This document shows positions 3,890-60,590 of a DNA stretch of 64,000 nucleotides, in pieces. Source of the DNA: Congeria kusceri (Eukaryota > Mollusca > Bivalvia > Myida > Dreissenidae); NCBI GenBank assembly GCA_027627225.1, contig CM051027.1, forward strand, positions 88,582,451-88,646,450, in the 5' to 3' direction. The first letter of the stretch is position 1, and each line of letters begins with the position of its first letter. The notes under the pieces are model-generated. The model was not told where the DNA came from. It worked only from the letters and a program-made list of their open reading frames with translations, and ran no database searches. A program made the position numbers and the translations under genes.

Positions 3890-4135
3890 AGTACATACAA
3901 AGTCCTAACGACAAAACCGCTCTGTTCATTTTAAATGCACTTGCAATCACGTAAACCTATATTTACTTTGAAAGACAGATATCTCAGCAAAAATAGGCAT
4001 GTTTGAATCATTTGGTGCCATTAAATATTTGTGTTAGATATTGTGAACTGTATGCACTAATTGCGGGGGTTCCGAATCAATTACTTGTGTTCCAGGTCAC
4101 TCGACACTTTTCCTATAGTTTCCTTAAGGGTTTGT
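3890..4135 (-). repeat. Dispersed repeat, inverse of 60355-60590
   Basis: The reverse complement matches 60355-60590 through recognisable blocks: an AGTGACC-GGAACAC block, ATTGATTCGGAAC, GTGCATACAGTTCA, TTTAGGTTTACGTGATTG-like sequence and a GCGGTTTTGTCGTTAG block. It is non-coding and diverged, and is probably part of an old transposon. Confidence 0.7.
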
Positions 4136-4139
4136 TTAA

Positions 4140-4985
4140 AAAGCATATTTAATTTTTAATCCGACTTAATAGTTGTCAAACAACACCACAAGAAAGATAT
4201 ATTCATTTCTTGAACCGGACAACACATAATCACAACATAATAGTAAGGACATATTGATTTTCCCACGTTTGGAACATTATTTATATTTCATGTAGGATGT
4301 GGGTTAACATATGAAAAGGTACAAAGCCATATGACCATTCAGACGTTAGACTGCAACAATAAAACCATCTTATAATGGATCAACGTTTGCGAATGTTTTG
4401 AGGAGTAAATCAAATATAAAAATGCCAGCTAAAAAAATCAAGTCCGCGAAATAAATGAAATCAGTACATTAACCGAAATGCGATGAACAATCCAAAGTGC
4501 ATTTACGTACGCAATGTGGTAATTGTACATAGATTCTAAACATATATGTATCATCAGTAACAACTAGATCAACAATTTGATAACAATCATAAGCATATTG
4601 ATAAAATTAACAACCTAAGAAAATAAGAGTAACAAAACACACAATGATAGAAAAATATAAGATATACCGGTTTCACAATTCTAATGGTAACATCAACACT
4701 CGGAAACATATATACACAATGATGTTGTCCAATGTAAACATAAGCTGAATGGTATCCTAAACTATTATGTGAAGGACACTATAGATCATTGGATAAAAAC
4801 GTATAAACAACATATAAATACGGAACTCCCAGTCCTTGCTTCTATTAAAAAGAATGTTTAACATTTTGACAGCTTTAGAATACATATAATATACACATAT
4901 ACTATATCAAGCTTACATTGATCAACTGTAATAATGATATTTATTAGATGAACTGCCTGAAAACATTAAAACAAACAAGAGTCTT
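4140..4985. other. AT-rich non-coding spacer
   Basis: No supported gene or recognisable repeat. The sequence is dominated by A/T runs. Confidence 0.45.
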
Positions 4986-6857: not shown

Positions 6858-9800
6858 GTGAGTAGTGCATACGTCTGTAGATAGCTAAACAGGTCTACGT
6901 GCACGCCTATTTGAAAAGTTAACAAATTCTGTAATAATATTGTGATTTATACATCACGACACCCAGAATGTTAACAAACCGGTTATGATCATTGACATGT
7001 ATTTGTCTAAAAAACAAAGACATATTCTGGAAAAAAAAATTAGACTGGGTATACCAATTACGGGGAATGTTATTTTCTTCTGCATCATGTAATAAAATGT
7101 TTTGTAATAATTTCTCTATACGTTTATCTGCCGAATATTTTCGAAAGTTAGGGTACCTGTAGACAGATAATGGATCGTTTAATTCATATCTATCGCAAAA
7201 AGAATGCATTGGGTAAGGGAAAATAGACAATTATATATAAACTGACGCACCCCCACTGTCTGCTCCTCCGATGAAGCATGCATTATCTTATGAGCATTCA
7301 TTATCTTCTGAGCCAGCATTAACAGGATACAGACCGTGAGGAATGGAATTTGACAAGATTATGTGAGTGATATTTACATCATTTGGACATTCCGGTAATA
7401 GGGATATCCTGGCAATAGGTATAACGTTACCAGTTTATCGAGTTTGCGCGGATTATCGTTAGGCTTACTCTTACTCCTCATACACGGTAGAAAGAACTTA
7501 CTATCTTTTTTGTTAACACTACAGATAAACTCTGAATTATGCCAAAGACAATTGAGCGAATTACATTCAATGTACCATGTATGTGCCTGTTGTTTCAGCC
7601 CAAGCTGTTATAGACAACAACCCACCACGTGTCCATATGCATCTGCATATCAAACTTAAGAAGTTACAGGTAATAATTGCCTTTTAAGTTAAACTTAATG
7701 ATCACCACGCTCACAAAATGGCGCATTTTCTAAACAAAATGTTACGATCAGTTTCAAATCTTCAAGGAATCGACACTCAATTTCAAATCCAAACATACAG
7801 TTATTATAGCATTAATTATTTAAATGGTATACGTACGTTTGCATGGCTAGAAGCCGCATATTATGTCTAAACTTAAGAATGTATGCTATTGTGTTTGTAG
7901 TTTTAATATTTTTATAAAGTTAATCCACACTTTGTAAGTACTCGTTAAAATATTAACATATTACACGCAATTACCATAGAGTATCAAATGATACTCCAAA
8001 CCAAAATGTTGTATCAATGCTTATTCTATGATAGGCAATATGTTTTTGTTCTTCTTAAAATATAATACCTGCATATGATACCCGCATTTCAAATCGTCCA
8101 AGTCCGTGTAATGTATGTTCACTTACGGTGCGCAGTTCGAGGCGGAACGCTTGGCGACCATAGAGCGCGACAACCGGATCCTGCTCGAGAAGATGGCGCA
8201 CATCATGCGCACCGGCGGCATCGTGGACAACAAGAAGGAGAACTATCACACCAAGAGGTACCATGCAGCCAGTAGCAGTGCCCTTAACTGCTGTGGGAGG
8301 TACCGAGCAGTCGGGGGCAACGCCCTCAACTGGTAGGAGGTACCATGTAATCGGTGGCAACGCCCTTAACTGTTGTAGGAGGTACCGCGCAGTCGGGGGC
8401 AACACCCTTAACTCTTGTAGGAGGTACCGTGCAGTCGGTGGCAACGCACTAAACTATTGTACGACGTACCGTGCAGCCGGTGGCAACGCACTAAACTATT
8501 GTACGACGTACCGTGCAGCCGGTGGCAACGCCCCTCGACTGTTTTACGAATTACCATGCAGTCGGTGGAAACGCCATTTACTGTTGTAGGAGGTAAGATG
8601 CAGTCGATGACAACGCCCTCTACTGTTGTGGGGGGTCACCACGCAGTCGGTTGCAACGTCCTCAACTGCCGTAGGAGGTACCGTGCAGTCGGGGGCAACG
8701 CCCTAAACGGTTGTGGGAAGTACCATGCAATCGGTGGTTACGCCCTCGATTGCTGTTGGATGTGCCAAGCAATCGATGGCAACGCCCTCAACTGTTGTAG
8801 GACGTACCATGCAAACGGTGGCAACGCCCTCGAATGTTGTAGGAGGTACCATACAATCGGTGGCAATGCCCTCAACTACTGTAGGTGGTGCCATGTAGTC
8901 GGTGGCAACGCCCTCAACTGCCATAGGAGGTACCTTGCAGTCGGTGGCAACGCCCTCAACTGTTGTAGGAGGTACCATGCCATCGGTGGCAATGCCCTCG
9001 AATGCTGTAGGAGGTTCTGTGCAGTCGGTAGCAACGCCCCTTAACTGGTGTAGGAGGTACTGTGCGGTCGGGGGCAACGTCCCTCAACTGCTGTAGGCGT
9101 TGCCGTGCAGTCGGTGGCAATGCCCCTCAACTGCCATAGGAGGTACCGTGCAGTCGGTGGCAACGCCCTCAAATGCTGTAGGAGATGTACTGTGCAGTCG
9201 GTGGCAACGCCCGCAACTGCACTAGAAAGTACTGTGCTTTCGGTGGCAACGCCCTCAACTGTTGTAGACGGTGGCAACGCCCTGAACTGCTGAAGGAGGT
9301 GCCTTGCAGTCGGTAGCAACACCCTCAACTGCTGTAGGAGAGGTGCTGTGCAGTCGGTGGCAACGCCAGCAACTGCACTATAAAGTACTGTGCAGTCGGT
9401 GGCAACGCCCTCAACTGTTGTAGACGGTACTGTGTAGTCAATTGCTACGCCATCAACTGCTGTAAAAGTTACTGTGTAGTCGGTGGCAGCGCCCCTCAAC
9501 TGCCAAAGCAGGTACCGTGCAATTGGTGGAAACGTCCTCAACTGCTGTAGGAGAGGTACTGTGTAGTCGGTGGCAACGCCCGCAAACGCTGTAGGAGGTG
9601 CCGTGCAGTCGGTGGCAACGCCCTCAACTGTTTTAGACGATACTGTGCAGTCGACGGCAGAGCCAACAACTGCTGTAGAAGGTACTGTGCAGACAACGCC
9701 CTCAACTGCTGTAGTAGGTGCCGTGCAGTCGGTGGCAACGCCCTCAACTGCTGTAGGAGGTAGTTTGCAGTCGGTGGCAACGTCCTCAACTGCTGTAGGA

Positions 9801-12800
9801 GGTACCGTGCAGTCGGGGCAACTCTTATTCAGTTGCCTTGCGTTACAAAACGCTCGAATAGGCCAAACAATATAACGTTGAGGTTCGTATTACATTCCAA
9901 CGCAAGTAGGTCAGGTATGTCGAACAAAATCATTTTAGGCCTACAAAAACATTTTATGTTTAGAGTATACACATTTGACTACATTGACCGCTGCCTTCAT
10001 TACTTGTATTATACACTTTTGTAATTCTTATATAAAATAAAAGTAAGAAGCTCAAGGTTATCCAGAACCAATAGCAAAGACATACTAAAAACTGAAACGA
10101 AACTTTTTTTCTAGAACAGTGTCAAATCAGCATAAGGCCCTACATTTCATCGATTCGTACTCGGTCATGCTTCGTTACCTGATTTTCCCCGAATGGTTCG
10201 TAAATTGTTGTCGGGTCGTCAGAAAAAATATGGTCGGCTGGTTACCGGAACCACAACAATTTCTTAACATGGTCTTCATCTCATAGTTTTGTCCATGAAA
10301 AATTTATAATTTTTCAACGAAGCATCATTTCCAATACATTTACGTCTCATGCGTGCTATTTCTTTTCCGTAGTTTATTATACAATGTACTTTTCCTTTTG
10401 GTCGGAATCTGCGACAAAATTTACATTTGCCAATCTGTTCAAATGTCCCTTGACAAACTATGAAATCAATGACGTCAAGTTTCACAGACGTGGTCAAGAT
10501 TTGTTGCCACACGTACACAGTGTGTGGGCAGTCCGTGGGTCATACACTCCAAACTGCACATTCAGATATATAATAATTTAATTTTTGTGTTTCCACGCTG
10601 GTTAGATGTTGCATTAAATGGGCAGACGTGAAATGCAGACAACTACACTAATACATTTTCTACGAAATGGAACCGGTATATACCTGTTTTAATTATGATC
10701 AGTTAGATCTATGTACAATTTTCATATAACAAACTGATTATCACAAACTGCACTTGAGTCAAAACTCAACTTGTTAGTCTAACAGTTTGCAATGCTTTCT
10801 GTCTCCCATCACGCGGCCAGTCTGAACAAGATCAAACGTCAGAGGGAGCTGTTGCGAATCACGCACGAGAACCTGGCCATTCTGAAGCGCCTCACGACCA
10901 AGGACCCGCACTACAACCATAAGAAGTGGCTCGTAGAGTGGCAGGTACGTGGCCATTCTGAAGCGCCTCACGACCAAGGACCCGCACTACAACCATACGA
11001 AGTGGCTCGTCGAGTGGCAGGTACGTGCTCATACGGGGTCAGACTGACCATGGACCCGCACTACAACCATACGAAGTGGCTCGTCGAGTGGCAGGTATGT
11101 GCTCATACGGGGTCAGACTGACCATGGACCCGCACTACAACCATAAGAAGTGGCTCGTAGAGTGGCAGGTACGTGCTCATACGGGGTCAGACTGACCATG
11201 GACCCGCACTACAACCACAAGAAGTGGCTCGTATAGTGGCAGGTATGTGGTCATACGGGGTCAGACTGACCAAGGACCCGCACTACAACCATAAGAAGTG
11301 GCTCGTCGAGTGGCAGTTACGTGCTCATACGGGGTCAGACTGACCATGGACCCGCACTACAACCACAAGAAGTGGCTCGTAGAGTGGCAGGTATGTGGTC
11401 ATACGGGGTCAGACTGACCATGGACCCGCACTACAACCACAAGAAGTGGCTCGTCGAGTGGCAGGTATGTGGACATACGGGGTCAGACTGACCATGGACC
11501 CGCACTACAACCACAAGAAGTGGCTCGTCGAGTGGCAGGTATGTGGTCATACGGGGTCAGACTGACCATGGACCCGCACTACAACCACAAGAAGTGGCTC
11601 GTCGAGTGGCAGGTATGTGGACATACGGGGTCAGACTGACCATGGACCCGCACTACAACCACAAGAAGTGGCTCGTCGAGTGGCAGGTATGTGGTCATAC
11701 GGGGTCAGACTGACCATGGACCCGCACTACAACCACAAGAAGTGGCTCGTAGAGTGGCAGGTATGTGGTCATACGGGGTCAGACTGACCATGGACCCGCA
11801 CTACAACCACAAGAAGTGGCTCGTAGAGTGGCAGGTATGTGGACATACGGGGTCAGACTGACCATGGACCCGCACTACAACCACAAGAAGTGGCTCGTCG
11901 AGTGGCAGGTATGTGGTCATACGGGGTCAGACTGACCATGGACCCGCACTACAACCACAAGAAGTGGCTCGTCGAGTGGCAGGTATGTGGTCATACGGGG
12001 TCAGACTGACCATGGACCCGCACTACAACCACAAGAAGTGGCTCGTCGAGTGGCAGGTATGTGGTCATACGGGGTCAACTGACCATGGACCCGCACTACA
12101 ACCACAAGAAGTGGCTCGTCGAGTGGCAGGTATGTGGTCATACGGGGTCAGACTGACCATGGACCCGCACTACAACCACAAGAAGTGGCTCGTCGAGTGA
12201 CAGGTACGTGCTCATACAGGAACCAGCGTTCAGTGTCCGCGAAAGTCACAAATCGTGTCAAATCCATTCCTGATCGCATGGTCTGAAACTGCTCACTATT
12301 ATGCACCTATCAATATGCACCTATCCCACGCGTGTGTGTGGGTGGGTGGGTCGGTTGGGGGGGGGGGGGGGAGCGGTGGGCAATCCAAGGGGAATTTGAC
12401 TAATTGTATTTTAGGGGATCTAATTCCCCATCCTAGAGGCAAGCATTTTTGTCTAAATCCCCTCAATAGGGGATGCTTAATTGCGTAATATTTTACCAGC
12501 CATGAAGGCTAGTGTTAATATGCTTATTTTTCCTAGACCTTAATTGTAGTTTTACTAGTTTTGCCCGAGGTCTGTCAAACTTTCGCGGATATTGATTGTG
12601 TGACGGACTCACTGAATGATGAATGCTGGGCCCCTTTATACTTCATTATCCAGAAATTATAATGTTAAAAAATAAACACACTGGCGGACATTGACTATCA
12701 GTGGACAACTTTCAACATTAATTTTGTTTTTCGTGATGTGAAACGTCGGAAGCACATTTAAATGTCTTGTTTGAACTCTTTCATAAGATTGTGTAAAATT

Positions 12801-15800: not shown

Positions 15801-18800
15801 GGTTTGCAATGGTCAATATGGTTGCCATGGAAACAGGCCACGGCCGCGTTGACAACGTCTGGAAACTAGACCGCACAGGTGATTGTACATTGTACAACTG
15901 TATGTGGTCGACATCCGGGTCAGTCGCTCATTACTGAAACGTTAAATTGCAACAACCCTTTATATCTTTTAAACTATAGGCATGTTGTACAGTTTCCAGA
16001 ACATTCAAATGTGTCATAAAGTGTGATGTTGCTTAAATTTTGATGTTGAACACTCTCGCCATCCACTATTCTTGGCACATATTTTAAGTCCTCCATTTCC
16101 TTGGCGAAAAAGGGACTAATCGTTAAACTTAGCACATCAAGTTGTGAATGTGATCAATATACTTTTTTTTCCCCACTGTCTCCGTGACAATGCGGTGATG
16201 GTGTTTTCATTTCTGGGGTTATTGTTATTGCCAAGAGACAGATATAACCTGTATTGAACCACGGGGTTCGGTTACCTCATATAGTATAACACATTTAATG
16301 TTGTACAGGTTTACGATGTCATAATTATGACATTCAAACCATCGTTACGTAAACAGAATTGAAGAGAGCATTCAAGAGAGTAGTCAGAGCAGCTCTCGTC
16401 GTGAACACTGTTTTCACATTAATCTATATATGCATTACCAATCACAATGTTACCTGTAATTATAGGATAAAAATAATGTTTTCAACTGGAAACATGTGGT
16501 AAACTAGCCTCTGTTGCAGGTGAACCAGCAGTACCTGATGAACATCACCAAGTACCCTCACCCCTGGCGTCAGGAGCAGAGCCCCTACATCACACAGGTG
16601 CAGCGGCAGACGACCGCCAACAAGCGCATCAGCAAAAAGGTACGCACACAGGTCATGCACGCCCGTACACCTCAGGTCCTGCACGCACGTACACCTCAGG
16701 TCCTGCACGCGTGGATACAATAACTCAGGTCCTGCACGCTTGGATACCATACCTCAGGTCCTGCATGCGTGGATACAATACCTCACGTTCTGCAAGCACG
16801 AACACCTCAGGTCCTGAAAGCACGTACACCTCAGGTCCTGCACGCGTGAACACCTCAGGTCCTGCACGCGTGGATACCTCAGGTGCCGCCTGCGTGGATA
16901 CATCAGGTCCTGCACGGAAGTACATCTCAGGTCCTGAAAGCACGTACACCTCAGGTCCTGCACGCGTGAACACCTCAGGTCCTACATGCGTGGATACATC
17001 TGGTCCTGCATGCAAGTACACATCAGGTCCTGCACGCACGTACATCTTAGGCCCTGCACGCGTGGATTCCTCAGGTCCTACACGCACGTACATCTCAGGT
17101 CCTGCAGACGTGAACACCTCAGGTCCTGCTCGCACGTACACATCATGGCCTGCTTGCACGTACACCTCAGGTCCTGCACGCACGAACACATCAGATCCTG
17201 CACGCACGAACACCTCAGGTCCTGCACGTACGAACACCTCAGGTCCTGCACGCACGAAAACATCAGGTCCTGCACGAACGAACACCTCAGGTCCTGCTCG
17301 CACGAACACCTCAGGTCCTGCACGCACGAACACCTCAGGTCCTTCTTGCACGTACACATCAGGTCCTGCTTGCACGTACACCTCAGGTCCTGCACGCGTG
17401 GATACCTTAGGTCCTGCACGCGTGGACACATCAGGTCCTGCAGGCACCTACACATCAGGTCATGCAGGCACCTACATCTCAGGTCCTGCAGGCACATCCA
17501 CATCAGGTCCTGGACATAGGGACTGGATATCTGTGCATGAACATTGAAGTCAATTTATTTGCCGGTATTATACAACATTCATGATATGTTTTCAGAACGT
17601 TCAGCGTACCTGATATTGATAATAACCTGCAGCAATACAATCTTTGACAAGTATACGTTGAACAAAGACTTTGTCTGAATGATTTTTTATGATCATTTCA
17701 TACAATAATCCTGTTAGAGCTACCTTATATTCCTTTAGCATTGTTGTCATTTTAAGTTTATTTAGAAATTAATGCAAACATAGACTATGACATATGCTTA
17801 AAGTTCAGATGTTTTTTTTTTTTTCAAAGTCCAAGCCAACATACCGGTACTTTAAATATACATATTTTTCATATTCTGGTATGCACTGGGAGACTTGGAC
17901 AAGTAGTTATTTTCTATTAATGTAGTTGATGTGAATATGGTTGTAGTATGTAGACGTGAACTTGTTTTCGAAATATACATAATTTATCCGCTCTATGGCA
18001 TTCGTTGGCCACTATAGTTCGCGACTTCTGTTTAAATTGTAGTGGGCGATTAACCGAGAATGACTCCAAACTAACGCGTTGTTGTAACCACGGCGTTATA
18101 ACAACGATTACCACGTACAGTGTAGGAATAGGTTATGTAAGTTAGCACGATTTTGAACTTCTAGTGTTCACCATCGTTCCATTGTGACGTCGTATCACAG
18201 CTACGCATTAGGTTCCTCATGCTTTAATATTATACTCTCGTAATTATTTGTCATGAATTTGTAGATTTTAGTCTTTGTTCGTTTTCTAGACATACAATTT
18301 ATTATTAACACGAAGGCGACAGAGCGATCATTAAGCAACAATTATATACATTGGACATGAACCTATGGAAACAAGAAAGAAAGTACCGAAATATTTCCAT
18401 CATACTTTCACGATATGAAGCACGGTTACAGTACTATACAAGCACGTACCGGAATATGTACGTATTGTCAACAACGTATAATTGAGATATTATACTGGTT
18501 AGCGACCAATTTTCCGCCCGTACCAATTATTTGCCCACTACTGAAAACGAGTCAAAACTACAAAAAGAATACTTTTAACCATACTGGAGTCGATGTGCCT
18601 TGTTGTTTTTTCAAACTTCAGCCGATTATTGCAGGTATCCGTAAGTATTCCGTATTATAATATCCATGTAAACAAACAATGCACTAATGGCCTTGTCGGA
18701 AGCACGCGGGGGATGACGTCATCACACACGCGCTCATTTGTTTGAGGCGCTAACTGAAGGGGATTCTTTTTTCCAAGGCATTTTACTTCCAGACGATTGT

Positions 18801-21800
18801 TTTGTTAGTGAACCATGAATGACTCTAGATTTGTAAACGACCCCTTCCAGTTTTAACTAAATATATTTGAATTATTAAGTGTAAAAATAAAATGATACTT
18901 GTACAAACACTTCAGTACACTTCAGTACCCCTGTTCGGGCCTCAATTGTTGCTATAAATATTTTGTAGGTGTGGCTTACGGATGTAGGTTAGCATATTCT
19001 TCAGAAGTGAAATGTGAACACAAATTATGTGTTTTATAATGGTGTATCATCCTTGAAATAGAAAAATAAGCAGCTTGATAATCAATATATGTTGTTGAGT
19101 ATCAAGATAATTGTACACTGACTCAGTGTTGCGCATGTTCAGGTGTGTTACAAAGTGATTGTTTCGCATTTGAACATGAATGTATCTCACAAAAGCTTTT
19201 CTAAAATGAAATAATACTACGAAAAATATTTTAAAACTCGCCTTTGAAAATAACGCGTTTTTTAATTGGTACAGTTGTTTATAATTATGCGTTGAATTAT
19301 AGGTGTTTTTCGCACGTGATATAATTCTATTAGTGGGAATGAATTTTGAAAAAAAGTTATTGTTTACTGTATTTGGTGCCTAACATTGCTTGTGCCACGT
19401 TTCATAACAAACTGTTTAGGTCACAATATACTAAAAGATTTCCTTAACAAATTCAATGTAAAAGCAATAAATTCAACAAAAAATAAACTCAACATTTTGC
19501 GCGTAGAGACCCTCATAACCATACCTTTTCTTAAAGAGCATTCCGAGCCGAATTGATTTAGACAATAAAAAAGATAGGTCATGTGATATGTAAGAAAGAA
19601 CTCGACGCGAATCAAAGTTCACTGTTTTACGGCCATCTTTTTACCGGCTACTCTCCAGTTGAAGGTATACTGCCAACTGTCAAAGTCTCGTCATGTAGTC
19701 TCCAACCTTCAAGCGAAACAGTGAATTTTTAGTACACAACAATGTTTTTCCTACCACACGTACAAAGAAATATTCAAAAATAAAGTCATGGCAAGTGACT
19801 ATACAGAAAATTGTGTCTTCAAATAAATGGTGTTGATTTATTTAGAGAGTATAGCATTGCACACCTGAAATATTTAGTATACTGTAACCTATAAGAGAAA
19901 TTTGTTCTCATTAAAATTAGTTTTTCTTGCATATAATTATCTTCCCATGCATATTGCACCAATATATTAAGTTTGGCTTGTATATCTGTCCATTTGGCCA
20001 TTTTATTTCATATTTTCAAACACAGGTGATTTTGGTCGGAAGCCGGTGATTTCAAGCGTCTTGAAGCTTAAATGTCCCTCTAACAATTAAAGCTGATATT
20101 TGCAATATTTGTGACAAAATACCCAAACAAACCAAACAAACATGTATGGGGGGCTTATGTGGGGTGAGGAGAGAATGACTTTGTTAGATATTTTTACTCT
20201 AAGCCATTTTGATAATGTATTTTTTGTGTATTTTTTAAAAAAAATCACCCCAAAAATGTAAATTTAATAGAAAAAAAATTCCAATTTCATCCAAGACAAT
20301 TAACAAATTAGTCAAAATGGGAGATCAAAGATACTTTGAAGTGTAGAAATCAATCAGCTTCCAGTAATTGCTTGTTTCAAACCAATAAAGTGTAAAATCT
20401 TTAAAGCACCTTGTTTGTCGCAGCCTCTTTAATTACAGGCCACCAATTATATATTCTAGTATATAATGTCATGAGTGCCTTTAAACTGCAGCAGGTGGTC
20501 AATTTGCATTGCCTGCTCACATTTAGAGGTTTAAGGGAATACAAAATTGCATATTTTGGGCACAAAATAAGTACTTTGACTTTTTTTAAGGTGGCAATCT
20601 GGTCAAAATGGGGTTCATAACCAAGCAAAAGAAAAAGTTGCTCAATGTTGGTTTTAAACGAGGTGGGACTAGTCCGGTGAAGGGGAAAAAACATAATTAT
20701 GAAAGAAGGTCAAATTCCAACACAACCTATGTAAGGTTAGAAAGGTCATCCTTTGAAGCACGGGTAGCTTACAATGACAAGGTTCTTACTTTTCGGGATG
20801 TAGACGGCTCTCAAACCCCAGCTAAGCCCTTGCGTCCGACAGCGAACAAGATTCGCCATGTAGACCTGTTACGGGTTCCTGCTCCATCAAAAGTCCATCC
20901 CGACTTACTTACGAACAAGGTCTATGTCCCCGCCCTACTCCAGTCTATGATGTCCTCTGAAAATAGAAAGCATAGGTTAAGAAGTGATAAATGTAGGGGC
21001 GACTTGGTAATTGACGGCAGTGCTTCCATAAAGTGGTGCTGAGGCTGGGAGGAAAGGTTAAAATGTACAAGATGCAGATATGTAGGCAAGCATTATAAGC
21101 TTTACAATGAGGTTCCATCAAGTACCAGGGGCAGAAAGGCAGCTCAGATCAATGTAGGCTTCCAAATAGGTGTTGCAAGTACTTCTATTGGGAACACAGG
21201 TTCCCGCAGAATTCTCAACACAACCAATATCATTGCTCCCTCTCCACTCGCTATGCAAAAACAAGCAAATAAGGTCAATACTGCCCTTAAATCCCTAAAT
21301 GAGAGAAGCATGTACCAGATTAGAGAAAACTTAGTTGCTGAAAATGCCAAAATTGGTCAAAAAGATCCCTCTAAGGTAAATGTTGAAGGGGACACTTGCT
21401 ACAACAATCCAATTTTTAACTCTGACGCGACACCCTTTCAAGCCGGAACTATTGCCATAAGTACTATGTGTGAAAACAATACCAGAAACAAGCAAATTGT
21501 AGGGGTACAAGTAGCAAATAAACTATGCAGGACTGCATCAATGCTTAGGAATAAGGGTAAACCTGTTCAGTGCCCCAATCATAGGGGGCATTGTTCTGCA
21601 AATGTTTCAGAGAGGGAACCAATAGGTGATGAAGGCAAATGGAATAGGTTGTTAGGTGACCAGATCTCTAAGGACATCAAAATAGCAAATTTCACTTGTG
21701 ATGGGGACAGTAGGGCATTCCAAGGTGTTCGTAACTCTCACGGTCACAATGTGGGTCATCTTAAGGATCTGAGGCACCTAGGCAACTCGCTGAAGCGCGA

Positions 21801-24800
21801 GCTCAACAAAGCGCCTTTCTCAAAGGGCATGCTCAAGGGTCATGCCAAGTCTAATATCAGGAGTCGGTTCGCTCTCTCGGTCAAAGCTAGGGGTATGGCT
21901 GAGCTTAAAGCTGCCCACAATAAACACCAGGGTGACATCAAGGTTCTAAAGAAGGTCATGGTTGATGTAATCGCAACCATTGTTCTATGCTTCAGTGGTT
22001 ACTGCGGTACTCATTGTGCAAAGTACAGTTATGTCTGTGCTGGTACAAATAGGCAAGCTAAGAATTTCATGCCAGACAATGTCAAGGTTAAAATGGTTGA
22101 CAGTGACCAACAAGTCCTTAAAAAATGCATTGAAATGGTTTTAGGTCCAGCTGCTCTTGACGCTACCAAACTTTTAACCACAACCCAAAAAAGTGAAGCA
22201 GTAAACAGGTCGTACCAAGCTGTCAATCCTAAAACTGTGACTTTCTCACGCAACTGTGTAGGTCGAATTCACGGGCAGGTTCACAAATTAAACAATGGCT
22301 ATGCTGACTCTGTAATTGCAAAAACCACTGAACTAAATGCTAACCTTACCCAGGGGTCAAAGATTATTAAGCAGATAGCATATGAGGACCGCAACGACCT
22401 TAACCGAAAGCAAACATCCGCTACCAACAAAGCACGAGCTTTACGTGCCAGGACGCGGAATTATCGATACAAACTGCATGAGGAATTACACTACGGCAAG
22501 GGCATGAGTGACCCCAAACCTGATTATGACAGTCTTCCACACCTTAAGCATCATAAATATGCTTAGTTGATTGTGTACCTGATAATAAATTGTTATTACC
22601 TGTTTTGGCATAAGAGACCTCTAACAAGTGGCCCTCGCGTCAGCATCAGGCGTTCCTCTACCTGAAAAAGGCAAAAATACCTAATAGAAATAGATATAAA
22701 ATGAAAAAAAACATGCATTTATGTATTTTAAGTGTATTTCTATGAATAAAAGGAAGTGATAAAGCTTGTTGTATTCATGTTTCTACCAAATATGCAGGCT
22801 GGCTCAGTTCCATGCCCGCTGCACTGTCCGAACTGTAAACATGTCCGCCGTTCCATGTTGGTGGAATGGGGCTCTATGTTTAAATGTTCAGGCTTAACAC
22901 ACAAGCTAGTGTTGCATAAGTGGCTCACGGAGTCCCTGGCGTTCAATTCTGACTTCATGTAGCACATTAACGCTACACGGTGAACCAAGTATGTCTCTGA
23001 TTTTATGTCCGAAGGCAATTTAGCCCTCATTCGGCCATAATAGGGTAAGGAACTATTTCAAATACAACCATTCCAGATCAAACAATCTGAATTGATGCAT
23101 TTAATGCACTTATTTTCTACTCTTTTGCTCAGAAATGACCAAAAATCTGCTTTCTCATCCATATTTTGCACTTGCAGACGATATTTTATTTTAACCCAAA
23201 GTCAGTTTAGGTCACAATATACTAAAAGATTTCCTTAACAAATTCAATGTAAAAGCAATAAATTCAACAAAAAATAAACTCAACATTTTGCGCGTAGAGA
23301 CCCTCATAACCATACCTTTTCTTAAAGAGCATTCCGAGCCGAATTGATTTAGACAATAAAAAAGATAGGTCATGTGATATGTAAGAAAGAACTCGACGCG
23401 AATCAAAGTTCACTGTTTTACGGCCATCTTTTTACCGGCTACTCTCCAGTTGAAGGTATACTGCCAACTGTCAAAGTCTCGTCATGTAGTCTCCAACCTT
23501 CAAGCGAAACAGTGAATTTTTAGTACACAACAATGTTTTTCCTACCACACGTACAAAGAAATATTCAAAAATAAAGTCATGGCAAGTGACTATACAGAAA
23601 ATTGTGTCTTCAAATAAATGGTGTTGATTTATTTAGAGAGTATAGCATTGCACACCTGAAATATTTAGTATACTGTAACCTATAAGAGAAATTTGTTCTC
23701 ATTAAAATTAGTTTTTCTTGCATATAATTATCTTCCCATGCATATTGCACCAATATATTAAGTTTGGCTTGTATATCTGTCCATTTGGCCATTTTATTTC
23801 ATATTTTCAAACACAGGTGATTTTGGTCGGAAGCCGGTGATTTCAAGCGTCTTGAAGCTTAAATGTCCCTCTAACAATTAAAGCTGATATTTGCAATATT
23901 TGTGACAAAATACCCAAACAAACCAAACAAACATGTATGGGGGGCTTATGTGGGGTGAGGAGAGAATGACTTTGTTAGATATTTTTACTCTAAGCCATTT
24001 TGATAATGTATTTTTTGTGTATTTTTTAAAAAAAATCACCCCAAAAATGTAAATTTAATAGAAAAAAAATTCCAATTTCATCCAAGACAATTAACAAATT
24101 AGTCAAAATGGGAGATCAAAGATACTTTGAAGTGTAGAAATCAATCAGCTTCCAGTAATTGCTTGTTTCAAACCAATAAAGTGTAAAATCTTTAAAGCAC
24201 CTTGTTTGTCGCAGCCTCTTTAATTACAGGCCACCAATTATATATTCTAGTATATAATGTCATGAGTGCCTTTAAACTGCAGCAGGTGGTCAATTTGCAT
24301 TGCCTGCTCACATTTAGAGGTTTAAGGGAATACAAAATTGCATATTTTGGGCACAAAATAAGTACTTTGACTTTTTTTAAGGTGGCAATCTGGTCAAAAT
24401 GGGGTTCATAACCAAGCAAAAGAAAAAGTTGCTCAATGTTGGTTTTAAACGAGGTGGGACTAGTCCGGTGAAGGGGAAAAAACATAATTATGAAAGAAGG
24501 TCAAATTCCAACACAACCTATGTAAGGTTAGAAAGGTCATCCTTTGAAGCACGGGTAGCTTACAATGACAAGGTTCTTACTTTTCGGGATGTAGACGGCT
24601 CTCAAACCCCAGCTAAGCCCTTGCGTCCGACAGCGAACAAGATTCGCCATGTAGACCTGTTACGGGTTCCTGCTCCATCAAAAGTCCATCCCGACTTACT
24701 TACGAACAAGGTCTATGTCCCCGCCCTACTCCAGTCTATGATGTCCTCTGAAAATAGAAAGCATAGGTTAAGAAGTGATAAATGTAGGGGCGACTTGGTA

Positions 24801-27800
24801 ATTGACGGCAGTGCTTCCATAAAGTGGTGCTGAGGCTGGGAGGAAAGGTTAAAATGTACAAGATGCAGATATGTAGGCAAGCATTATAAGCTTTACAATG
24901 AGGTTCCATCAAGTACCAGGGGCAGAAAGGCAGCTCAGATCAATGTAGGCTTCCAAATAGGTGTTGCAAGTACTTCTATTGGGAACACAGGTTCCCGCAG
25001 AATTCTCAACACAACCAATATCATTGCTCCCTCTCCACTCGCTATGCAAAAACAAGCAAATAAGGTCAATACTGCCCTTAAATCCCTAAATGAGAGAAGC
25101 ATGTACCAGATTAGAGAAAACTTAGTTGCTGAAAATGCCAAAATTGGTCAAAAAGATCCCTCTAAGGTAAATGTTGAAGGGGACACTTGCTACAACAATC
25201 CAATTTTTAACTCTGACGCGACACCCTTTCAAGCCGGAACTATTGCCATAAGTACTATGTGTGAAAACAATACCAGAAACAAGCAAATTGTAGGGGTACA
25301 AGTAGCAAATAAACTATGCAGGACTGCATCAATGCTTAGGAATAAGGGTAAACCTGTTCAGTGCCCCAATCATAGGGGGCATTGTTCTGCAAATGTTTCA
25401 GAGAGGGAACCAATAGGTGATGAAGGCAAATGGAATAGGTTGTTAGGTGACCAGATCTCTAAGGACATCAAAATAGCAAATTTCACTTGTGATGGGGACA
25501 GTAGGGCATTCCAAGGTGTTCGTAACTCTCACGGTCACAATGTGGGTCATCTTAAGGATCTGAGGCACCTAGGCAACTCGCTGAAGCGCGAGCTCAACAA
25601 AGCGCCTTTCTCAAAGGGCATGCTCAAGGGTCATGCCAAGTCTAATATCAGGAGTCGGTTCGCTCTCTCGGTCAAAGCTAGGGGTATGGCTGAGCTTAAA
25701 GCTGCCCACAATAAACACCAGGGTGACATCAAGGTTCTAAAGAAGGTCATGGTTGATGTAATCGCAACCATTGTTCTATGCTTCAGTGGTTACTGCGGTA
25801 CTCATTGTGCAAAGTACAGTTATGTCTGTGCTGGTACAAATAGGCAAGCTAAGAATTTCATGCCAGACAATGTCAAGGTTAAAATGGTTGACAGTGACCA
25901 ACAAGTCCTTAAAAAATGCATTGAAATGGTTTTAGGTCCAGCTGCTCTTGACGCTACCAAACTTTTAACCACAACCCAAAAAAGTGAAGCAGTAAACAGG
26001 TCGTACCAAGCTGTCAATCCTAAAACTGTGACTTTCTCACGCAACTGTGTAGGTCGAATTCACGGGCAGGTTCACAAATTAAACAATGGCTATGCTGACT
26101 CTGTAATTGCAAAAACCACTGAACTAAATGCTAACCTTACCCAGGGGTCAAAGATTATTAAGCAGATAGCATATGAGGACCGCAACGACCTTAACCGAAA
26201 GCAAACATCCGCTACCAACAAAGCACGAGCTTTACGTGCCAGGACGCGGAATTATCGATACAAACTGCATGAGGAATTACACTACGGCAAGGGCATGAGT
26301 GACCCCAAACCTGATTATGACAGTCTTCCACACCTTAAGCATCATAAATATGCTTAGTTGATTGTGTACCTGATAATAAATTGTTATTACCTGTTTTGGC
26401 ATAAGAGACCTCTAACAAGTGGCCCTCGCGTCAGCATCAGGCGTTCCTCTACCTGAAAAAGGCAAAAATACCTAATAGAAATAGATATAAAATGAAAAAA
26501 AACATGCATTTATGTATTTTAAGTGTATTTCTATGAATAAAAGGAAGTGATAAAGCTTGTTGTATTCATGTTTCTACCAAATATGCAGGCTGGCTCAGTT
26601 CCATGCCCGCTGCACTGTCCGAACTGTAAACATGTCCGCCGTTCCATGTTGGTGGAATGGGGCTCTATGTTTAAATGTTCAGGCTTAACACACAAGCTAG
26701 TGTTGCATAAGTGGCTCACGGAGTCCCTGGCGTTCAATTCTGACTTCATGTAGCACATTAACGCTACACGGTGAACCAAGTATGTCTCTGATTTTATGTC
26801 CGAAGGCAATTTAGCCCTCATTCGGCCATAATAGGGTAAGGAACTATTTCAAATACAACCATTCCAGATCAAACAATCTGAATTGATGCATTTAATGCAC
26901 TTATTTTCTACTCTTTTGCTCAGAAATGACCAAAAATCTGCTTTCTCATCCATATTTTGCACTTGCAGACGATATTTTATTTTAACCCAAAGTCAGTTTA
27001 GGTCACAATATACTAAAAGATTTCCTTAACAAATTCAATGTAAAAGCAATAAATTCAACAAAAAATAAACTCAACATTTTGCGCGTAGAGACCCTCATAA
27101 CCATACCTTTTCTTAAAGAGCATTCCGAGCCGAATTGATTTAGACAATAAAAAAGATAGGTCATGTGATATGTAAGAAAGAACTCGACGCGAATCAAAGT
27201 TCACTGTTTTACGGCCATCTTTTTACCGGCTACTCTCCAGTTGAAGGTATACTGCCAACTGTCAAAGTCTCGTCATGTAGTCTCCAACCTTCAAGCGAAA
27301 CAGTGAATTTTTAGTACACAACAATGTTTTTCCTACCACACGTACAAAGAAATATTCAAAAATAAAGTCATGGCAAGTGACTATACAGAAAATTGTGTCT
27401 TCAAATAAATGGTGTTGATTTATTTAGAGAGTATAGCAATTGCACACCTGAAATATTTAGTATACTGTAACCTTTAGTAAGACGCGTGTAAGACGCAAAA
27501 CCCCTCCATTTCCGGGCGAAAATGGGTCTCTAACCATTACGGAAAAACCAAGGTCGCGCGAAGTGCGACAGCGGTTTTTCCGCTTATAGATAACACGAGT
27601 ACCTATTTGCTGTTGTTGTTTCATTTCCAATACCTAATAAGTTTAAAATCTATGTTCCGGAAGTGTCAATCGCGATCGGTTCATTCCGGTTCCGGGATTT
27701 TATGCATAGGTTCCGTATTTCAGTAACGATAAACAACGCTAAGCGCACCTGCTAACAGGGAATCAATTCTTGCTGTTTATTGAACCCAAAGAGATTATAA

Positions 27801-38107: not shown

Positions 38108-40985
38108 ATGTGGAGCTAGTAGATGTATATACTATAAACACGAAAGCATATGAGCGTCATTTATGGAAACATGACGATGGTAATTACGATATGTTACGTG
38201 AAAGTTTTTCTACATTTGATTGGAATACTATCGCAAGTATTGATGTTAACACATATTGCACTAATATCACCGATACTATTATCGGTAATGCTAAACATTG
38301 TATCCCAAACAGGATAATAAAAATAAAACCGCGTGACGCTCCCTGGCTCAATACACAGATACGCCGTATGATAAGAAAACGAAAACGGGCTTACCGATAT
38401 GCAAAATCGAAAAATTCTGACTATTATTGGTCCAAATTTCGAACAATAAGAAACTAGACCATATTATTAATTAGACAAGCTAAAGAGAATTACTACGAAA
38501 GGTTAAGTGTAAAACTTAAACACAACAATCTTGCACCTAAGGACTGGTGGAGGATTCTTAAGTCATTTATCAATAAGCCTAATAATAACATTATATCTGC
38601 ACTCGTGAATCCTGCCCACAACTCCACTTCAACTGATTGTTGTGAGAAAGCGAACATTCTAAACAACTTTTTTGAAAGTCAGTCAAACATTTACATTAAT
38701 AACAACGACGTACCGGAGCCCATCTATGTACCAATTGCAAACTCGCTAGAGTCGATCATTATCACACCTACTGATGTTCACGATATTCTTAAGTCACTTT
38801 CTGTTGACAAAGCGTCTGGGCCTGATGGTATAAGTAACCGTATTTTAAAAGAGTGTCGGGTTGAACTGTCCACTCCTCTATGTGACTTCTTTAATTTCTC
38901 GCTCAACAAATGTATATTGCCCAGCTGTTGGAAAGAAGCTAATGTCAGTGCAGTTTTTAAAAAGGGTGATCCAAAAGTAGTAAGTAACTATCGACCAATT
39001 TCGCTGCTTAATACAATGGAAAAAGTTTTGGAAAAAATAATATTTAAACATGTTTATAACCATCTCATTAATAATAGAATACTTACCTCATTTCAGTCCG
39101 GGTTCTTGCCGGGTGACTCTACCACAAATCAACTTACCTATATATACGATACGTTCTGCAAAGCCCTTGACAATGGGCTAGAGGTTAAAGCTGTCTTTTT
39201 TGACATCAGTAAGGCCTTTGACAAGGTCTGGCACCAAGGTCTGTTACTCAAACTCCAAGCTATTGGCATTCGCGGAAAGTTACATTCTTGGTTTGTAAAC
39301 TACCTACATGGAAGACGCCAACGCGTAGTGCTCCCAGGCGCATGCTCTAACTGGGCCACACTTGAAGCTGGTGTCCCCCAGGGCTCTATATTAGGGCCCT
39401 TATTATTTTTAATCTTTATAAACGATATTGTTAATGATATCCAAAGTAATATTCGCCTTTTTGCTGACGATACATCCTTATACATAATTATAGATGACCC
39501 TAACACCTCAAATGCAATATTACAAAACGACATCGACAAAATATCTAACTGGGCTCTAAAATGGCATGTTGCATTTAACCCCTCCAAGTCAGAAACATTA
39601 ACTTTCTCAAGAAAACAACAACCGAATCAATATCACTTTACAATGCTCTCCACAAATATACTAGATGTCAGTTCTCATAAACATCTCGGAGTTATTCTTT
39701 CGAACGATTGCAAATGGCACATGCATATTAAATATATAACAGACAAAGCCTGGAGTAGAATTAATATTATGCGCAAATTGAGATTCAAACTTGACTGAAA
39801 ATCGCTCGAAATAATTTATATATCGTTTATACGCCCCTTATTAGAATACTCAGATGTAATATGGGATAATTGTACCCAGGCAGAAAAACACGAATTAGAC
39901 AAAATTCAAAACGAAGCGGCACGAATTGCATGCGGATCATCAAAATTAGTTTCCCTATCAGAATTACATAACGAAATTAAATGGGAACCTTTGCAAGATC
40001 GACGCGATAAACATCAACTTATATTATTTTATAAAATGCAAAATTTACTTACACCTCAGTATTTGATGGATCTGGTACCTCAACATATTGGTTCTGTTTC
40101 TAGGTATAATCTTCGAAACGCTAATGATCTTCGTACATCAGAAACTAGATCTACTCTTTATTATAATTCGTTCTTACCCGCAGTTATTAGAAAATGGAAT
40201 AGTTTACCAGAATTAGTAAAAAATAGCGACTCGTTGAATATCTTTAAATACAATCTTAACCGAAACGTAGTCAAGAACCCTTCGTACTATTATGTCGGTA
40301 AGCGCTATCTACAAATACTTCATACGAGGCTAAGAACCAATTCAAGTTCGCTAAATGAACATCTCTACGTAAAACATGTCGTTGCTTCTCCACTGTGTTC
40401 CTGTGGTGATATTGAATCGAATCATCACTTCTTTTTTATGTGCCCATATTTTAACACTATACGAGCTAAATTAATTAACAATATTTATAGAATAAGTCGC
40501 AACGTAGACCTCAATGTAATATTAATCGGCAATATAAATCTAGACGACAATGTAAATTCCACCATATTTCTTCACGTCCAAGAGTATTTAAGTGAATCCC
40601 GACGATTTTCTTAACAATCCGATTCCGATTCCGTTGTCACTGTTTATTTATTCCGTGCATCACCAGTCCTCCACTCCTTGTTTTGTTTTTTATTCTTTTT
40701 TTTTCTTTTGTTTTTGTTTGTTTGTTTGTTTTTTGTTTTTTTCTCGCCTCACTCGTTTGTCTTTCTGAAAGTTAGAATACCTATACCATATACATCTTTA
40801 TCTGGCTTCAATGCTTGTTGTTTGTTCTATAAAACCTTGCCATCTATATGTGTAAAAACTATTTCAAGGAGAGAAACCATATAAGAATTTAATTCTTTCG
40901 TTTCAATCCTTTTCTTATTCTTATTGCATTGTGCATCTATTTGTATATTTGCTAGTTGTACAAGAGAAATAAATATGTTTAAACT
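38108..40985 (+). mobile_element. 5'-truncated non-LTR retrotransposon (Jockey/CR1-type)
   Basis: The sequence starts inside the linker between endonuclease and reverse transcriptase of ORF2 and runs through the 3' UTR, with AATAAATATG near 40968 and no clear poly-A tail. 5' truncation is the usual outcome of target-primed reverse transcription. No target duplication was identified. Confidence 0.8.
38110..40614 (+). pseudogene. LINE ORF2 reverse transcriptase with two in-frame stops
   Basis: One frame covers 38110-40614 (835 codons), broken by TAG at 38455-38457 and TGA at 39796-39798. Order: linker with PWLNTQIRRMIRKRKRAY and DWWRILKSFI; reverse transcriptase with DKASGPDGISNRIL, WKEANVSAVFKKGD, NYRPISLLN, FDISKAFDKVWHQGL, GVPQGSILGPLLFL and the catalytic FADD; then a C-terminal region with SPLCSCGDIESNHHFF and a Cys, typical of Jockey/CR1-group ORF2. 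The endonuclease is missing, so the copy is dead even without the stops. The TGA sits where relatives usually have Arg before KSLEIIY, consistent with CGA-to-TGA decay (from memory of the family). Two point stops and no frameshift imply a fairly young copy. Confidence 0.9.
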
Positions 40986-58404: not shown

Positions 58405-58590
58405 TTGTAGTCTCCAATCTTCAAACATATCAGTGATTTATGAGTGCATACCAATGCTTACTCTACCTACATCTCCAAAAAAGAATTGCAAAGCAAGTGT
58501 CTTAACCTAAAAACATGTCTTCGAGGTAAGCTTGTTGATTTGTTTAGAGAGTATAGCGCAACATGACCTATTTATTTGTGTAATGTGACC
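58405..58590 (+). mobile_element. Relic right end of the intron-5 transposon family, next to TTAA
   Basis: Aligns with the right half of the 471-bp direct repeat: GTAGTCTCCAATCTTCAAAC (GTAGTCTCCAACCTTCAAGC there), GTGTCTT, GTTGATTTGTTTAGAGAGTA, TAGC, and ends AATGTGACC at 58590. The next four bases are TTAA (58591-58594). The terminal GGTCAC matches the left end of the array. No left end was located. Confidence 0.65.
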
Positions 58591-58599
58591 TTAAAAGTG

Positions 58600-60354
58600 A
58601 ATCAAGCGAATGACTACTACTACTTTGCCAAGTAAATGTTATGTTTTGATAGACCTACACTAAGGCTACAGATTATTGTCTACATTCAATTTATTCCATT
58701 TGCCAATATTATACTGTTCATCTGTATTCTCACGGTACTTAACCTTTAAGTAAATATTTGGAGCAAAAAACAACTAACAAAACATTTCCTTTGAATAACA
58801 TGCTATAAATTGAACATTTTCACGAAAATAACAACTAGAAATTGTGTTTAAAAGTAAAGTATTCGTCCTTAAATTATTCTGTTTTTCAATGCACCATGCA
58901 GCCATCTTGAAAAATTACGTCATCGGTAATCTCACGGTAAAACTTTTGTTTTGAAATAAGTTTGCTGTTAGTGTATAAACAAACACAAATACACTTTAAA
59001 TTGTTGAATTGTAACCTTAAACAAATATAACAAAACTATAATTTGAGTCTTCATTTATATTTACTCATGCAGACGAAAGTGTAGACATTGACCCCTAATG
59101 TCTACCTATAGCCGCAAGCTGATACGAAAGTTATTTATATTTATGGTTTCAAATCGTATTACTTGTTTAAATTCGAATGAATTAATTTTTAATTTATTAT
59201 TTTCTTAAAGAAAACCAAAAATATGTTAGATGTTGACAATTAAAAGCATGAAAATCCGAAGATAAACAATTACCGCGAAAATACAGATACCGCGAGAATA
59301 CCTATGCCGAGTATATTGTGTTCATATATAACAAGTACATAAAATACTCTTGTGATATTGTATAAAAAATGAAAATACCCTTTAAATTTCTCAAATACCC
59401 TTTAAAGCTGACAGACTGGGGGTAAAATACCCTTTAACCAAAACATCAGGGGGTAAAATACCCTTTAGGCTAAAACCTTATCTGGAGCTCTTTAATATCA
59501 TTATTACAGTCGATTGAGATAAGCAAGTATAGTATACATGTATGTTATATGTCTTGTATGTATTCAAAAGCTGTCAGATTGTTAAATAAGTTGTCTTTAA
59601 TAGCAGCAGAGACTGTGAGTTCCATATTTATGTTTTTTTTATACTTTATATACAATGATCTATAGTGTCCTCCACATAATAGTCTAGAGTACCATTCAGC
59701 TTTATGTTTACAGATCACATATCATCATTTTGCTGTAGTATGTACACATGTGTTTCAGAGTGTTGAAATTACCATTGGAATGGTGCTACCAGTGTATCTT
59801 GTGCTATCATTATGTGTTTTGTTACTATTATATGCTTCAGTTGTTAATTTTATCAATATGCTTATGATTGTTATCAAGTTGATCTGGTTATTACTGGTGA
59901 TACATGTATGTTTGGAAACTATGTACAATTAACACATAGCGTACGTGAATGAATTTTGGATTGTTTATCGCATTCCGGTTAATGTACAGATTTCATTTAT
60001 TTCGCGGATTATTTTAATTCTTTTAGCTGGTATTTGTATATATAATTTTACCAGTCAAAGACATTGACAAATTTTGATAAATTATAAGGTGATTTTATTG
60101 TTGAAGTCTTACATATCTGATTTACCATCTAAGCTATATGACTTTGTACCTGTTCATATATTGACCCCAATCCTACATGAAATATAAATAAGATGACAAA
60201 CGTGGGAAATCATCAATATGCCCTAACTATTATTTTGTGATTATTTGACAAATAATATTTGTTGTGAAGTTTCCAGAAATGAATATATGTTCCTATTGGT
60301 GTTGTTTTACAACTACTAGACAGTTAAAAATGCTTTTAAAACAAATCTTACAGG
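58600..60354. other. Non-coding spacer
   Basis: No supported gene. ATACCCTTTAAA-type phrases recur near 59385-59475. The plus frame at 59750-59932 is hydrophobic but isolated. Confidence 0.35.
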
Positions 60355-60590
60355 AAACTATAGCAGAAGTGTCAAGTGACCCGGTAAACACGTAATTGAT
60401 TCGGAACACCCGCAATCAGTGCATACAGTTCAACAAAATATTTAACAACAATACTAAGTAATACCAAATGTTTCAAACACGCATATTGAAGCTGAGATAT
60501 TTGTCTTCCGAAGTATATTTAGGTTTGCGTGATTGAAAGTACATTTAAAAGAGAGCGGTTTTGTCGTTAGTGACATGGAACTACCCAATT
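60355..60590 (+). repeat. Dispersed repeat, inverse of 3890-4135
   Basis: Shares ordered blocks with the reverse complement of 3890-4135: GGAAACTATAG, AAGTGACCCGG, GTAATTGATTCGGAACACCC, GTGCATACAGTTCAACAAAA, AGATATTTGTCTTC and GCGGTTTTGTCGTTAG. Non-coding. Confidence 0.7.

Follow-up and report, generated by a model that had tools for sequence, protein, structure and literature searches.

We analysed a 64,000-nucleotide stretch of the Congeria kusceri genome (the window; GCA_027627225.1, contig CM051027.1, positions 88,582,451 to 88,646,450), which at positions 19415-27476 holds a two-unit transposable element. In the 1.549-Gb assembly searched, the window is part of contig C4, and the genome-wide tests reported here were made within that one genome. 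From left to right, the element comprises a 4-bp target-site duplication, TTTA (19415-19418), a long terminal direct repeat of 471 bp (LTDR 1, 19419-19889), a 3,320-bp internal region that starts with TATA and ends with TTTA (INT 1, 19890-23209), LTDR 2 (471 bp, 23210-23680), INT 2 (3,320 bp, 23681-27000), LTDR 3 (472 bp, 27001-27472) and a second TTTA (27473-27476), with all LTDRs and INTs on the plus strand. LTDR 2 is identical to LTDR 1, LTDR 3 has an extra A at LTDR position 439, and no differences separate INT 1 from INT 2 or the two 3,791-bp periods from each other. Each LTDR has GG..CC ends and its own 17-bp imperfect terminal inverted repeat (TIR; GGTCACAATATACTAAA versus GGTTACAGTATACTAAA, two mismatches). 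Within each INT, a transposase gene on the plus strand and a nuclease gene on the minus strand converge. An earlier note on this DNA had laid out the two 3,320-bp segments, the three 471/472-bp direct repeats and the TTTA flanks correctly to the base; the TIRs of the LTDRs and an in-frame TGA in both genes were absent from it.

The transposase of unit 1 (20608-22566, 652 codons) is of the Kolobok DDE type and, with its stop read through, matches the Pfam family PF20700 (Mutator-like transposase) at 7.1e-40. A single TGA at codon 145 (21040-21042) interrupts the frame, with no frameshift in the window; by unit identity, the copy in unit 2 (24399-26357) carries the same stop at 24831-24833. The protein matches a Dreissena polymorpha protein at 87%. 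The DxxH motif and acidic residues D262, D365, D367, D387 and H390 are kept in all 38 alignment rows, and E530 in 34 of the 35 rows that have a residue there. C307 and C322 (38/38 rows) together with H325 and C329 (37/38) make up a CCHC zinc finger, and C461, C466, C470 and C477 are kept in every row with a residue at those positions. The structure model is RNase H-like, nearest to the ISCth4 (Foldseek), P element and Hermes transposases. A 437-amino-acid open reading frame (ORF) from a downstream start at 21253 retains D262, D365, D367 and E530.

The nuclease of unit 1 (22740-23162, minus strand, 140 codons) is an I-PpoI-like His-Cys-box protein that matches the Pfam family PF05551 (zf-His_Me_endon) at 8.7e-11. 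It too contains one TGA and no frameshift in the window, at codon 35 (23058-23060), repeated at 26849-26851 in the identical unit 2 gene (26531-26953, minus strand). Its match to an I-PpoI profile spans profile residues 71-108 with an E-value of 0.003-0.005, weak but residue-exact: S97, H98, C100, C105, H110, E114, N119 and C125 of I-PpoI align to identical residues. These residues are shared with His-Cys-box homing endonucleases; unlike I-PpoI, the nuclease here sits in a DNA transposon and not in a group I intron. A 96-amino-acid ORF that includes the catalytic residues is open from a start at 23030. The predicted nuclease structure has a pLDDT (predicted local distance difference test) of 33, too low for fold comparison, and a single-sequence search of solved structures gave no match. 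Homologue and profile searches returned the same three proteins, and no relatives were confirmed in viral and prokaryote collections. The best match to the I-PpoI site in the LTDR has 5 mismatches in 15, as expected from 300 shuffles.

The Pfam matches to both proteins bear out the pairing of a transposase with a nuclease that the earlier note had claimed. A view of this pairing as unrecorded did not stand, as the same pair of enzymes defines KolobokP, a group in which a DDE transposase accompanies an I-PpoI-like nuclease (Kojima and Bao 2022, PMC9587614). In that paper, KolobokP has paired LTDRs, roughly 450 or 660 bp long, with their own TIRs of 11-18 bp and RR..YY ends, convergent genes, duplications of 3-5 bp and a transposase with a DxxH motif and two zinc fingers, and it also forms multimers, (LTDR-INT)n-LTDR, and INT-INT junctions. 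Judged by its sequence features, the element in the window is KolobokP, a two-unit copy of the form (LTDR-INT)2-LTDR, and it agrees with each KolobokP feature tested: LTDRs of 471/472 bp, close to the published length of about 450 bp, with short TIRs of 17 bp and GG..CC ends; DxxH and zinc fingers in the transposase; a downstream nuclease on the opposite strand; short, 4-bp duplications; multimers; and INT-INT junctions that lack a few bases. Dreissena polymorpha and D. rostriformis appear as KolobokP hosts in Table 1 of PMC9587614, which counts 228 families, and in the one paper library searched the name KolobokP was not found beyond that paper.

To place the window copy among its relatives, we searched the genome with exact sequence tags; counts are of exact matches, and the places examined are the first 100 listed per search. 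A 33-bp transposase tag covering both alleles has 2,466 matches, 140 of them with the nonsense allele, and the LTDR left-end tag has 2,404. The figures given for other species in the main text of PMC9587614 are far lower than this total of 2,466. An ORF for the nuclease (140-144 amino acids) is present at each of six loci sampled among the first 100 listed transposase tags (five single, one in an array), where the longest transposase ORFs measure 652, 647, 393, 652, 394 and 652 amino acids, and the nuclease tag occurs in 53/53 complete units. The co-occurrence of the two genes that the earlier note had proposed to check is therefore borne out in this one genome, and so is its expectation of 4-bp duplications: of 12 loci read at both ends, 10 have matching ones. 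Solo LTDRs look rare at the level of exact tags: three candidates, defined by the lack of a listed transposase tag or second listed LTDR within 8 kb, stand among the first 100 LTDR places (C1:58.50, C1:91.33 and C2:12.07 Mb). At G000:C1:101822486-101822976, two LTDR left ends lie 458 bp apart, less than one LTDR, with no listed transposase tag.

The 53 complete units comprise 35 with both stops, 10 with neither, 7 with the transposase stop only and 1 with the nuclease stop only, a sample that is not random, 30 of its loci coming from a biased read-through list. That list, an early protein search in which 68 of 7,537 candidates were scored and all had the TGA, was biased by its read-through query. 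Incomplete units were left out, among them L047 and L049, both with an internal deletion, and a unit split between L034 and L037, which has a sense codon in the transposase and a stop in the nuclease. Intact copies exist elsewhere in the genome (C1, C2 and the C8 array). Both stops are present at all seven nonsense loci read at both ends, six of which have matching duplications: TTAA (C1), TGTA (C3), TTTA (the window), TACA (C6), TTAT (C11) and TGGA (C16). Since these are six separate insertions with different duplications and both stops, the nonsense branch has transposed while carrying both stops. The transposase behind this movement most likely came from intact copies.

Copies of the element are also assembled into arrays, in which units are spaced by 3,791-3,794 bp or by about 3,316-3,322 bp. 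The array on contig C8 (G000:C8:14099065-14325273, parts of it in L034-L044) has 62 units by nuclease tag over 226 kb and contains all four stop combinations, long INT-INT runs and blocks of differing combinations; the genome-wide count for this tag, 218, is no total, as the tag differs from the intact type. Among 20 of its units, near pairs are somewhat more alike than far pairs (Spearman 0.22; 41 of 2,000 permutations as high), and the pattern fits local duplication together with exchange between units. An exact genome search finds INT-INT junctions without an LTDR at 663 places. In the first 100 listed, the TTTA and TATA that meet at the junction are reduced to TATA (52), TTTA (20), TTTATA (15), TTATA (5), TTT (4) or TTTTATA (1), with all eight bases present in 3; these remnants were counted by hand, and arrays copy scars, so that 100 junctions do not equal 100 events. 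PMC9587614 describes such excision of single LTDRs, in which one side loses a few bases. On contig C14, TATAATTGA follows the right end of a four-unit array (L010, G000:C14:580243-585198), whereas the left flank has TTGA as its last four bases; part of an INT may therefore precede the true duplication. At G000:C5:83506565-83508132, array orientation flips between adjacent nuclease tags separated by 1.5 kb, which means either that two arrays abut head to head or that a segment is inverted.

We then compared the LTDRs of 12 loci. Five loci share one or more variants between both LTDRs (at site 264; 297; 142 with 266; 266; and 396), two have one-sided variants and five have none. Genome-wide, the site-297 variant is found in 56 LTDRs at 21 loci, with at least two variant LTDRs at 18 of the 21. 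These lie 3,779-3,782 bp apart at 16 loci, about 7,090 bp apart in C310 and 7,579 bp apart in C526, the last of which fits an intervening non-variant LTDR. The loci were grouped by hand. Because insertions of one lineage share ancestry, independent cases are counted by variant, which gives about five, and not by locus. For a variant to stand in both LTDRs, a mutation in one has to be transferred to the other ahead of the spread of the lineage. The shared variants suggest a single template for the regeneration of both LTDRs of a pair, and point to a transfer by gene conversion, by unequal exchange or via a one-LTDR intermediate. Such lineage variants on both LTDRs, like the spread of a doubly nonsense branch, differ from KolobokP as published in the available text of PMC9587614.

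Taken together, we read the element as a KolobokP dimer of the doubly nonsense branch that was likely inserted by the transposase of intact copies and likely became a dimer when its long repeats recombined unequally, a reading to which we assign a probability of about 0.78. Intact transposase would most likely act in trans at the LTDR ends, and insertion would duplicate 4 bp of the target. Multimers would arise when LTDRs, or INTs that have lost the LTDR between them, recombine unequally. In the model of Kojima and Bao (PMC9587614), the nuclease would provoke such recombination through a cut inside the repeat unit. This recombination would expand and homogenise units. The two LTDRs of an element would be restored from a single template before its lineage spreads, with gene conversion, unequal exchange and a one-LTDR circle as candidate routes. 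The middle LTDR of the window is of the left type at position 439, compatible with crossover and circle integration alike.

Several observations weigh against this reading. The one-sided LTDR variants are those of LTDR 3 in the window and of C16, and outside the 12 loci the C430 and C8 arrays each include one variant LTDR unlike its neighbours. The duplication does not match at the seventh nonsense locus (C14), nor do the 4-bp ends at the intact-type locus L047. Ratios of nonsynonymous to synonymous single-nucleotide polymorphisms within the family are near neutral for the nuclease (private 9:2, shared 3:1, versus 946:248 possible changes) and for the transposase (private 27:10, shared 5:2, versus 4,343:1,293), with too little divergence to reveal purifying selection on the nuclease. 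The LTDR matches the I-PpoI site no better than chance. The two 3,791-bp periods agree at every base, which an assembly error could also produce. Finally, a shortened transposase from the downstream start would keep its acidic residues and could act in cis.

This last point leads to the alternative that the nonsense branch is autonomous, with downstream starts (437-residue transposase, 96-residue nuclease) or read-through of TGA yielding working proteins. Both shortened frames are open, each gene in the window has one stop and no frameshift, and the branch has reached many places. We nevertheless consider autonomy unlikely: the N-terminal part of the transposase that would be lost has C-x2-C-type residues before codon 216 that are kept in relatives, both sites carry sense codons in other copies, hence intact helpers, and the nonsense allele is found once among the first 100 transposase tags listed and in 140/2,466 overall. 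A dimer created artificially, through duplication of one unit by the assembler, would account for the identical periods; it is improbable given that tandem units occur on many contigs with neighbours differing in several arrays, that LTDR 3 differs from LTDRs 1 and 2, and that PMC9587614 describes the same multimers in other species.

Mutator-like elements (MULEs) have target-site duplications of 8-11 bp. The element resembles them in the PF20700 name and in its nearest solved fold, ISCth4 (Foldseek), and differs in its 4-bp duplication, its LTDRs and its Kolobok-type zinc fingers, which rule out a standard MULE. The non-MULE architecture of long direct repeats and a 4-bp duplication proposed in the earlier note is upheld by the anatomy of the window and by the duplications at other loci. 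Its half-proposed idea of a transposon that acquired a homing enzyme by chance, which for a MULE could appeal to the Pfam name of the transposase family, is highly improbable and is refuted at the level of family features by the 4-bp duplications, the LTDRs with their own TIRs, the zinc fingers, the nuclease in 53/53 complete units and a pairing fixed in the published lineage (PMC9587614).

PMC9587614 leaves open how paired LTDRs survive the excision of single LTDRs, and what role the nuclease has. Regeneration of LTDR pairs bears on the paired-repeat question raised there, and thousands of near-identical copies with traceable variants make LTDR homogenisation, excision remnants and movement in trans testable. 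Like LTR (long terminal repeat) retrotransposons and bacterial composite transposons, the family has solo and tandem forms and an LTDR unit with its own TIRs; unlike them, it has no reverse transcriptase and carries the transposase in its middle region. A broader and more tentative view, which we hold to be possible and somewhat doubtful, is that KolobokP is a DNA-only counterpart of LTR elements with a homing gene, whose LTDRs are re-made from one template instead of passing down as a pair of independent ends, whose INT is a homing passenger and whose broken copies ride on intact ones. The LTDRs would be re-made by way of a one-LTDR circle or by nuclease-provoked copying, in which INT and one LTDR enter an LTDR already in place. 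The INT would invade LTDRs mobile by transposase, and the intact copies on which doubly broken ones ride would be those kept in large arrays.

Elsewhere in the window, positions 58406-58590 hold a remnant of another LTDR family with 68-76% identity to LTDR positions 276-471. It ends in GTGACC followed by TTAA; its left end was looked for and not found. A conserved 25-bp block common to the LTDR and this remnant (24/25 columns) was not relied on: column permutations equal it in 2.9% of cases and equal its longest run in 16%. A reverse-transcriptase ORF at 38605-39798 (PF00078, 1.2e-33) is likely a non-LTR retrotransposon. Minisatellites lie at 10896-12217 (74-bp period), 8255-9822 (42 bp) and 16649-17512 (24 bp), and inverted repeat copies at 4044-4799 and 59645-60432, about 55-56 kb apart, share blocks that are 85-90% complementary.

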